Shown here piece by piece: positions 25,550 to 28,067 of a stretch of 64,000 nt of DNA (positions within the stretch are counted from its first letter, which is position 1; the number at the start of each line of letters is the position of its first letter). The translations under genes and the position numbers were made by a program. The notes under the pieces are model-generated. The model did not search any database. It was not told where the DNA came from and saw nothing but the letters and a program-made list of their open reading frames with translations. The stretch is from Acetobacter ascendens (GTDB lineage: Bacteria; Pseudomonadota; Alphaproteobacteria; Acetobacterales; Acetobacteraceae). Where the stretch lies: the NCBI RefSeq assembly GCF_001766235.1, contig NZ_CP015164.1:1349501-1413500 (forward strand), given 5' to 3'.

Positions 25550-25699
25550 TTACGGGTGAACCAAAGTTAGCCCGAACATGATGGTCACTAATACCATCAT
25601 AAACCCCAGCATGGTGCGCACACGTTCTTTTTGCCGTTTGTGCTTTTCTGTCTGCTCAAGCAGACCATCCTGCTGTGCATTCATACCACTTACACCCAT
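25550..25699 (-). CDS. Small single-pass membrane protein after ctaB (CoxF-like candidate)
   Basis: About 50 residues: a polar, basic N-terminal stretch (LEQTEKHKRQKERVR) and one C-terminal membrane helix (MLGFMMVLVTIMFGLTLV). In many alphaproteobacteria a short protein with this layout, CoxF, follows ctaB in the cytochrome oxidase cluster. Position and topology fit, but sequence similarity cannot be proved by eye. The start is uncertain: ATG 25699 overlaps the ctaB stop region, and ATG 25684 is the alternative. Confidence 0.5.
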   Translation of the reverse strand: MGVSGMNAQQDGLLEQTEKHKRQKERVRTMLGFMMVLVTIMFGLTLVHP

Positions 25700-26658
25700 G
25701 CCTGAAGGAAGTGGTCTGCCAGCAGACCACAAAAAAGAAAGAACAGGTAAGCCAGAGAAAAGCGGAATGAAATACGGGCCGCTTTATCCCCTTTAAGGCT
25801 TACACCCTGCGCATCCTGCGGTTCCAGCAAGACGCGCACAGCACATGCAATAAACCCCAGGCCAAGCACTAAAGCCGTAGTTGTATACAACCAACCGCAC
25901 AGATGCATAAAGGATGGCACCAAAGAAACAGCCAGAAGCACCAGCGTGTAAATAAAGATCTGCCAACGTGTATGCCGTGCACCACGCACCACCGGCAGCA
26001 TAGGAATACCCGCACGCCCGTAATCCTTGCAGGCATACAGAGAGAGCGACCAGAAATGCGGAGGTGTCCAGAAAAAGACAATCCCAAACATTACAACAGG
26101 CAGAATGGCCATGTGGCCTGTTGCCGCTGCCCACCCGATCATGGGTGGGAAAGCCCCTGCAGCACCACCAATCACAATATTCTGCGGTGTGGAGCGCTTA
26201 AGCCACATTGTGTAGATAACGGCGTAAAAGAAAATGGAAAATGCCAGAATGCCTGCAGCCAACGTGTTGGTTGCCATCCACATCAAACATACAGAAAGGC
26301 AGGAAAGCCCTACCCCGTAAGCCAATGCTTCATTTTCTGGGATGCGCCCTCCCGGAATAGGGCGTGTAATGGTACGCTGCATCACGGCATCAATATCGCG
26401 GTCATACCACATATTGATGGCACCAGCCGCGCCAGAGGCCATACAGATGCAAAAGATGGTTACTAATGCCACAAAGAAATTCATGTGGCCGGGTGCGACA
26501 ATCATGCCGGCCGCACCGGTAAAAACAACCAGCGAAATCACGCGTGGCTTTAGCAGCTGAATCCAATCCCGCGCACGAGTACCAACCTGATCGGCCTTAA
26601 ACCGTGGACGACGTTCTGCTGCTGCTTCAAGGGAAGCTGTTGCCACGCTGTCACTCAT
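25690..26658 (-). CDS. ctaB: Protoheme IX farnesyltransferase (heme O synthase)
   Basis: A polytopic UbiA-superfamily enzyme that attaches a farnesyl group to heme b to make heme O. The prenyl-diphosphate motif NMWYDRDIDAVMQRTITRP is intact, as is the second acidic or aromatic block around SLSLYACKDYGRAGIPM. The start was set at ATG 26658 because MSDSVATASLEAA follows the previous gene's stop codon with ATGA overlap. Acetic acid bacteria need heme O or related hemes for their ubiquinol oxidase, so the gene can be functional although the oxidase-like neighbour is degenerate. Confidence 0.95.
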   Translation of the reverse strand: MSDSVATASLEAAAERRPRFKADQVGTRARDWIQLLKPRVISLVVFTGAAGMIVAPGHMNFFVALVTIFCICMASGAAGAINMWYDRDIDAVMQRTITRPIPGGRIPENEALAYGVGLSCLSVCLMWMATNTLAAGILAFSIFFYAVIYTMWLKRSTPQNIVIGGAAGAFPPMIGWAAATGHMAILPVVMFGIVFFWTPPHFWSLSLYACKDYGRAGIPMLPVVRGARHTRWQIFIYTLVLLAVSLVPSFMHLCGWLYTTTALVLGLGFIACAVRVLLEPQDAQGVSLKGDKAARISFRFSLAYLFFLFCGLLADHFLQAWV

Positions 26659-27911
26659 GCCCGGTATCCCTTGGAAGCCTGAACAGAAACTGCGGCCCAA
26701 TGTGATGTTGTCTGCTGGTTACGCCGAAAGCTCACCACAACTGCGCCAACAAAGCACAGGGCTGCCAAACAAAAAAACGCCCCACTTGCCATTTGAGCAC
26801 CCGGCACAAACACCAGCGCCGTAGCTATGGCTGTGCAGGCAAAATGCAGATACGCCATAAGTTGCGGATACCAATATCCGCATTCTTCACCACGCCACAG
26901 ATAGAAACCGCCGCATACAACATACAGCGCACCAAGCTGAAGCGCAGAATGCAGGCCACTTCCTTGCACAAGTTGCACAAGCCAACCACCGGAAACCACG
27001 CTCATAAAGCCCAAGCCCCAAAGCAACGGCACACGCAGCGAGGTACGGGCATTCCACGTACCTGCCAACCACAGCACTGCCAGACAGGTGGCGGCAAAGG
27101 AACACAGAGCCAGCATGGCGCTGCCAACCTGCATCGCGCCAGCACTTTCAGTGCCCTGCATGAAAACGCTTTTGGTCCACGCCACAACGCCAGAAGCCGC
27201 AGCGGCAGCCATAATGGATGCAACAGGTTTTTCAGAAAACTTGCCAACGCGGGCGCTAATTTCAAACACCACACCAAAGCCCGCGAGCAACACAACCAAC
27301 CCCACGGGGCCAGCAAAACTTTCTACATTTACCGCAGCGGTATCATGCCAGTGTTTAACAATCTGCCCGGCCATAACGGGCACCGTAAGTAGCATAACAG
27401 CGGCTGCCAGCATTTCTCCCCACACAAAAGGAGAGAATGGCTTGCGTTCTTCCATATCGGCGCGGCTATCAAACACCGTTGCCAACAAAGCCATGCATGT
27501 CATCAACGTGCCAACACACCACAACAAGGTGGCAGTTTTAAGCTCTGCTCCGGTAACCGTCAGGGCAGCTCCGGCAAATACACACAGAAAGCCCGCATCA
27601 TTCAACCGTGGCAGCAATACGCCCGAACGCTGCACTGCGCGCGGCAGCCACAAAGAGCCAAAGCCACCCAGCAAAGCCGGAACAACAACATATAAAAGCA
27701 TAAGAACAGGATGAGCCTGCACCACAGCATGCCATCCGGCCGTGGCTGGCATCATGCCCATTTCAGAAAGTGTAGAAGCACCTCCGCCAGCTAATGCTGC
27801 CAAAGCAGCCAGCACCACATAAGCGGCCCCTGTACCATTTCCTTTTCTGGCAACACGCATGCCATTTCCAGATGTCTCATTCTGTTGGCTCTGGTTATGG
27901 GCGACCATCAT
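26655..27911 (-). CDS. Degenerate heme-copper oxidase subunit I-like protein
   Basis: A 418-residue polytopic protein that aligns by eye to cytochrome c oxidase subunit I. LMLLYVVVPALLGGFGSLWLP parallels the helix II-III region. FVWGEMLAAAVMLLTVPVMAG parallels helix V. The segment FAGPVGLVVLLAGFGVVFEI parallels the CuB helix FGHPEVYILILPGFGIISEI, and FSEKPV parallels FSKKPV. The histidine in VVQAHPVLM matches the first heme a ligand. The HPEVY motif, the HH pair and the HFHYV ligands are all replaced, so CuB and heme a3 cannot be bound. Position upstream of ctaB and ATGA overlap match a normal ctaD-ctaB order. It was probably retained for assembly or is a decaying relic. Confidence 0.72.
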   Translation of the reverse strand: MMVAHNQSQQNETSGNGMRVARKGNGTGAAYVVLAALAALAGGGASTLSEMGMMPATAGWHAVVQAHPVLMLLYVVVPALLGGFGSLWLPRAVQRSGVLLPRLNDAGFLCVFAGAALTVTGAELKTATLLWCVGTLMTCMALLATVFDSRADMEERKPFSPFVWGEMLAAAVMLLTVPVMAGQIVKHWHDTAAVNVESFAGPVGLVVLLAGFGVVFEISARVGKFSEKPVASIMAAAAASGVVAWTKSVFMQGTESAGAMQVGSAMLALCSFAATCLAVLWLAGTWNARTSLRVPLLWGLGFMSVVSGGWLVQLVQGSGLHSALQLGALYVVCGGFYLWRGEECGYWYPQLMAYLHFACTAIATALVFVPGAQMASGAFFCLAALCFVGAVVVSFRRNQQTTSHWAAVSVQASKGYRA

Positions 27912-28067
27912 GCTCCAATTTCCAATTTCTTACTGGCATCATGCAGCCCTGCGCCCTTGGCGCGTGGCACGGCATAAAACTGTTCCATCGTATTTACGTT
28001 ACATACGCGCAAATGCCATTTTCTGCCACGCAGAAGAAACGCCCCTGCCTTGGCAGGAGCGCACAGG

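Follow-up and report, generated by a model that had tools for sequence, protein, structure and literature searches.

The window, by which we mean the whole stretch of 64,000 nucleotides of Acetobacter ascendens DNA that was analysed, carries directly upstream of the heme O synthase gene ctaB a gene for a homologue of cytochrome c oxidase subunit I (CtaD) in which four of the six metal-binding histidines are gone and the remaining two are the axial pair of the low-spin heme. We refer to this protein as CtaD'. The loss of the oxygen site with the low-spin ligands untouched fits the expectation for a subunit I whose only remaining cofactor is one heme, and CtaD' probably does bind heme. CtaD' appears to be a functional protein that has taken on another task next to the heme O synthase, not a remnant in decay. 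The reading that we favour, tentatively and with slightly more doubt than belief, is that subunit I has been repurposed, retains one low-spin heme site and works together with CtaB in the supply of heme O.

CtaD' is a subunit I homologue at the old oxidase locus

CtaD' (418 amino acids) is encoded on the minus strand at positions 26655-27911 by an unbroken frame of 418 codons. Its stop codon and the start codon of ctaB (25690-26658, minus strand) overlap within the tetranucleotide ATGA (26655-26658, minus strand), as read in the sequence; a longer ctaB frame starts with a TTG at 26700. The ctaB product scored above the cut-offs of NF003349 and TIGR01473. A preliminary description of the window had reported the intact frame, the ctaD-ctaB order with its overlap and the descent from subunit I, and all three stood. 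CtaD' matched PF00115 (COX1) with an E-value of 4.7e-13 and 49.2 bits against a cut-off of 34.8, and a search of PDB sequences matched it to the R. sphaeroides aa3 subunit I with an E-value of 2.6e-18. Its score against TIGR02891 (56.8 bits) is far below the cut-off of 670.75. Judged by these matches and by the alignment of 77 relatives, CtaD' is a true homologue of CtaD. The superposition on aa3 oxidase proposed in the preliminary description holds as a match but not as independent evidence: an AlphaFold model of CtaD' (pLDDT 72, pTM 0.75) predicts 12 long helices, with H67 in helix 2 and H321 in helix 10, and its top fold matches in the PDB are structures of aa3 subunit I, with TM scores of 0.75-0.76 by query length, with 19 of the 21 sequences in the input alignment of the model being canonical CtaD.

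The two neighbours of CtaD' are ctaB and a methyltransferase gene, neither of which encodes subunit II or III. Between CtaD' and the methyltransferase gene upstream of it is a terminator-like stem of 10 pairs with a T-rich tail (28039-28062, minus strand), which is weak evidence because 11 such sites were found in the region against 5.1 expected. Among the family members described below, ctaB follows CtaD' directly on the same strand in 76 of the 76 loci that hold ctaB, and the CtaD' stop codon falls inside ATGA in 60 of 77. Because canonical CtaD ends less than 300 bases from ctaB in 47 of 51 canonical alphaproteobacterial loci, the site of CtaD' is the old oxidase locus. PMC5158111 gives a ctaB-ctaD pair with adjacent locus tags in A. 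pasteurianus and annotates the CtaD' gene as ctaD (APT_01775).

The genome containing the window comprises 3.0 Mb in four contigs. A PF00115 search of this genome yielded three matches and no more: a strong one in a 705-codon frame, a cbb3-like gene in a 509-codon frame on contig C4, and CtaD'; a canonical aa3 oxidase was therefore rejected for this genome. The cbb3-type-like oxidase subunit (L002:1405-2835, on the 43-kb contig C4) reaches 153 bits against TIGR00780, which is under the cut-off, and its gene sits beside those of c-type cytochromes. The 4.25 kb around this gene matches two Komagataeibacter xylinus E25 plasmids at 100% identity, and by this identity the region seems to have been shared recently between the genera.

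The low-spin histidine pair is retained in a diverse family

Canonical residues are given in R. sphaeroides numbering, in which we take H102 and H421 to be the axial ligands of the low-spin heme, H284, H333 and H334 the ligands of CuB, H419 the ligand of heme a3, Y288 the cross-linked tyrosine and K362 the K-channel lysine. All codons listed here are on the minus strand. H102 corresponds to H67 of the window protein in helix II (codon 27711-27713), and H421 corresponds to H321 in helix X (26949-26951), which sits in GSGLHSALQLGALY at the place of the second histidine of canonical HFHYV. At the CuB ligands, H284 is replaced by glycine (G201, 27309-27311) and H333 and H334 by lysine and serine (K247 and S248, 27168-27173). 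H419 has become glycine, and both Y288 and K362 have become leucine. The preliminary description was right about the loss of the CuB histidines and the cross-linked tyrosine, and its statement that the HFHYV ligands are all replaced is correct for H419; it fails for H421, and with it fails the claim that only the helix II histidine remains. Since the low-spin pair is retained, the meaning shifts from a ligand-free protein to a protein with one heme site left.

Of 150 Acetobacteraceae genomes searched for relatives, 130 matched at an E-value of 1e-5 or less, the majority by way of canonical CtaD. Thirty matches, 25 of them non-canonical, were taken as loci, and a further eight non-canonical loci were obtained through weaker matches or as the frame preceding ctaB, which gave 33 carrier genomes under 21 genus labels. 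A CtaD' match was present in 47 of 49 Acetobacter genomes, with an open frame in 46 of the 47. The sole interrupted frame (G175, locus L147) comes from a draft genome that is 86% complete, and may represent decay or assembly error. K. xylinus (L063) was added as one named carrier among the matches listed from a CtaB scan of genome contigs. Sixty-one of the 80 loci listed from that scan had a CtaD-like match on the plus strand; 51 of these served as canonical controls and nine were dropped as partial or unlike. The controls were picked for a length above 500 amino acids and for the motifs HPEVY and HFHY, and the constancy of those motifs among them is partly by choice. The final set consisted of 77 CtaD' proteins, with a median pairwise identity of 26%, aligned with 56 canonical CtaD proteins; the interrupted G175 frame was excluded from the 77, as were the frames at L167-L174, which were canonical, incomplete or unrelated.

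In this alignment, H102 is histidine in all 77 CtaD' proteins and H421 in all 76 that reach the position, L020 being cut by the end of its contig before H421. H284 is retained in none of the 77, H334 in two and H419 in one, and neither Y288 nor K362 is retained in any. The CuB ligand H333 (window codon 27171-27173) is still histidine in 19 of the 77, in several lineages, though its partner ligands are gone. As for other canonical residues, W331 (W245 of the window protein, codon 27177-27179) is kept in all 77, P285 in 75, E286 in 15 and R52 in five, and the W172 column is gapped in all 77, as are the R481 and R482 columns in 75 each. W172 and R481/R482 serve the heme propionates in aa3. The family has also gained a tryptophan in helix IV (W131, codon 27519-27521), which is present in 74 of 77 members versus alanine in 55 of the 56 canonical proteins; by the numbering that we assume, W131 is close to the D-channel serines. 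The preliminary description had held that canonical ligands in relatives would point to a sequence error, and the same kind of ligand losses in the 77 relatives led us to reject sequencing error or an oddity of one strain.

Median retention in the CtaD' family across the 206 columns that are at least 98% constant in canonical CtaD is 13%. Only four of the 206 are kept in all of 30 hand-chosen lineage representatives (median identity 25%, lowest 16%), and these four are the two low-spin histidines and two tryptophans; if the columns are exchangeable, the chance of finding both low-spin ligands among the four is 2.8e-4. One possibility is that the histidines were kept for helix packing alone and that CtaD' holds no cofactor. 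The two tryptophans and several prolines and glycines are near-invariant too, some of them about as well kept as the histidine pair, so some columns are structural. Packing alone is nevertheless an improbable account of the pair, as the other histidines that are invariant in canonical CtaD have mostly gone from the family (0 to 25% kept).

CtaD' is under purifying selection and has one origin on the tree

Median dN/dS over 44 pairs of Acetobacter loci with dS below 1, pairs that share branches and are not independent, was 0.12 for CtaD' versus 0.033 for ctaB (L054, in which ctaB is cut, was excluded). CtaD' is therefore under clear constraint yet evolves faster than ctaB. In a tree from a quick search, in which many long branches were flagged, 40 CtaD' proteins form one clade among the canonical CtaD of Acetobacteraceae (SH-aLRT 100) with a length of 44.8 substitutions per site. 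This tree gives CtaD' a single origin, and on the CtaB tree its carriers make up one side of a branch with a support of 80.

The preliminary description had called the gene a relic, a label that poorly fits a protein under such purifying selection, and had also suggested selection for another role, which the dN/dS value and the near-constant presence of the gene in Acetobacter bear out. A decaying remnant without function would account for the lost ligands and loops, for the one broken frame and for the absence of the gene from reduced genomes. The dN/dS value refutes this in the main, and plain decay was rejected on that basis; the open frames in all but one of the matching Acetobacter genomes and the sites that stay invariant across so long a clade likewise make a functionless remnant exceedingly improbable.

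CtaD' accompanies ctaB and a presumed ubiquinol oxidase, with exceptions

Genomic company was searched in 30 genomes, consisting of 29 carriers and one canonical control. The CuB assembly factor Cox11/CtaG was absent from all 29 carriers searched and present in the control, and each of the 29 had one ctaB match. Heme A synthase was present in 15 carriers and not found in the other 14. Because heme A synthase is missing from those 14, we infer that heme in their CtaD', if bound, could only be heme b or heme o, and a heme A protein throughout the family was rejected on the same count. Every one of the 33 carriers has a PF00115 match that reaches 440 bits or more and is presumably, by its frame length, the ubiquinol oxidase; further oxidases are present in some.

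Six reduced genomes (G029, G116, G066, G070, G186 and G187) have neither CtaD' nor ctaB nor a strong PF00115 match, a joint absence that amounts to about three losses on a peptidase tree in which some forks are weak. G034, which is 82% complete, is also without all three and was excluded from the count. Since CtaD' is coupled to CtaB and was lost with CtaB and the strong oxidase gene, it would most likely serve the supply of heme O to the ubiquinol oxidase. Genomes that have ctaB and/or an oxidase but no CtaD' limit the rule of joint presence and absence. Three (G002, G076 and G081) have oxidase genes of 394-445 bits with no ctaB match and no CtaD' match at threshold, and eight (G001, G007, G031, G050, G053, G064, G077 and G110) have ctaB and oxidase genes with no CtaD' match at threshold. 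The CtaB tree, which left out G002, G076, G081, G050, G064 and G110, places G007, G031, G053 and G077 outside the clade of carriers. The most important exception is G001 (L169), in which ctaB and a strong oxidase gene are present and no ctaD lies between the methyltransferase gene and ctaB; G001 is placed just outside the carriers on the CtaB tree and, weakly, inside them on the peptidase tree. The step of heme O supply is a guess, because the adjacency is inherited and G001 does without CtaD'. A MAG titled Asaia bogorensis (L066) has a canonical CtaD and a ctaB that is only 58% identical to that of the window; its name may be wrong.

Because the ctaD-ctaB order is ancestral, as the canonical loci indicate, both the adjacency of CtaD' to ctaB and their joint loss may reflect inheritance. 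CtaD' might then be an independent membrane protein with one heme that carries electrons or senses redox state, placed beside ctaB by inheritance only, which would suit the histidine pair, the ancestral gene order and the faster evolution relative to ctaB. We consider this quite unlikely, given that six genomes have lost the gene along with ctaB and the strong oxidase gene, and that the loci suggest no partner gene. An alternative comes from PMC10715153 (2023), which in its passage on the gene describes a 'deranged' COX1 that lacks all metal-binding residues and is kept probably to stabilise CtaB. CtaD' would in that case be a heme-free scaffold that stabilises or positions CtaB in the membrane, as that passage of PMC10715153 proposes, and the constant adjacency to ctaB and the joint loss with it agree with such a role. 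A scaffold leaves unexplained the invariance of the two low-spin ligands when no other metal histidine is invariant, and G001 holds ctaB without CtaD'; we regard it as unlikely, if somewhat less so than an independent carrier or sensor.

Discussion

The favoured reading, a repurposed subunit I that works with CtaB, would imply that cytochrome c oxidase subunit I was turned into a non-oxidase membrane protein. CtaD' would keep the 12-helix fold and a single low-spin heme site formed by H67 of helix II and H321 of helix X, after the loss of the oxygen site of heme a3 and CuB, of the lysine of the K channel and of the outer loops. With its gene overlapping ctaB in a shared operon, it may accept, hold or pass on the CtaB product heme O (or the substrate heme B) for a bo3/ba3-type ubiquinol oxidase, much as apo-subunit I would once have taken heme for its own oxidase. 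Such a role in handling heme is possible, and we hold it a shade more cautiously than the reading as a whole. Belief and doubt seem to us evenly balanced for the broader description of CtaD' as a one-heme, non-oxidase membrane cytochrome of acetic acid bacteria that would serve heme O supply (or electron transfer) with the low-spin site alone as its functional centre.

Several lines of evidence were counted for one heme and a role in heme O supply, namely the invariance of the low-spin histidines, their place among the four columns kept out of 206, the dN/dS value, the single clade, the adjacency to ctaB in 76 of 76 loci, the absence of Cox11 from 29 of 29 carriers, the co-loss in six genomes and the 14 of 29 carriers without heme A synthase. 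Counted against it were the heme-propionate columns, since W172 and R481/R482 are gone from all or nearly all members and R52 is kept in five of 77, as well as the ancestral gene order, G001, the faster evolution than ctaB, and the tryptophans, prolines and glycines that are kept about as well as the histidines.

Matsutani in 2014 reportedly ascribed the lost function of ctaD to accumulated mutations. The Acetobacter 'deranged COX1-like protein' that PMC10715153 cites from Matsutani 2014 is, going by the citing passage, encoded by the gene described here, at its position next to ctaB. The gene itself is already known, and the retained low-spin pair is what is added here. Set against the protein as that passage of PMC10715153 describes it, CtaD' has both low-spin ligands in every examined member that reaches them, and the aligned sequences contradict the statement that all metal-binding residues are lost. 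No earlier statement of the retained low-spin histidine pair was found in open-licence full texts. In well-studied industrial bacteria, a gene that the literature lists as a deranged oxidase subunit looks functional, and the histidine pair provides a sharp and cheap test. If heme is bound, the low-spin site of a respiratory oxidase would be separable from oxygen chemistry and would have been reused, and CtaD' would bear on how newly made heme O is transferred from its synthase to the oxidase.

CtaD' shares with cytochrome c oxidase subunit I (CtaD/CoxA, TIGR02891, heme-copper oxidase family A) homology over most of its length, 12 helices, the low-spin ligand pair and the position upstream of ctaB. 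It differs in being without the heme a3 and CuB ligands, the cross-link tyrosine and the K-channel lysine, in missing the loops that carry W172 and R481/R482, and in being about 100 residues shorter. To our knowledge, and in the open-licence texts searched, no described member of the heme-copper superfamily has the low-spin site alone as its functional centre. The nitric oxide reductases and the cytochrome bo3/ba3 ubiquinol oxidases of this superfamily combine a low-spin bis-His heme in a 12-helix subunit with a high-spin heme and a second metal, whereas CtaD' has the low-spin ligand pair only, the ligands of the high-spin heme and of the second metal both having been lost.
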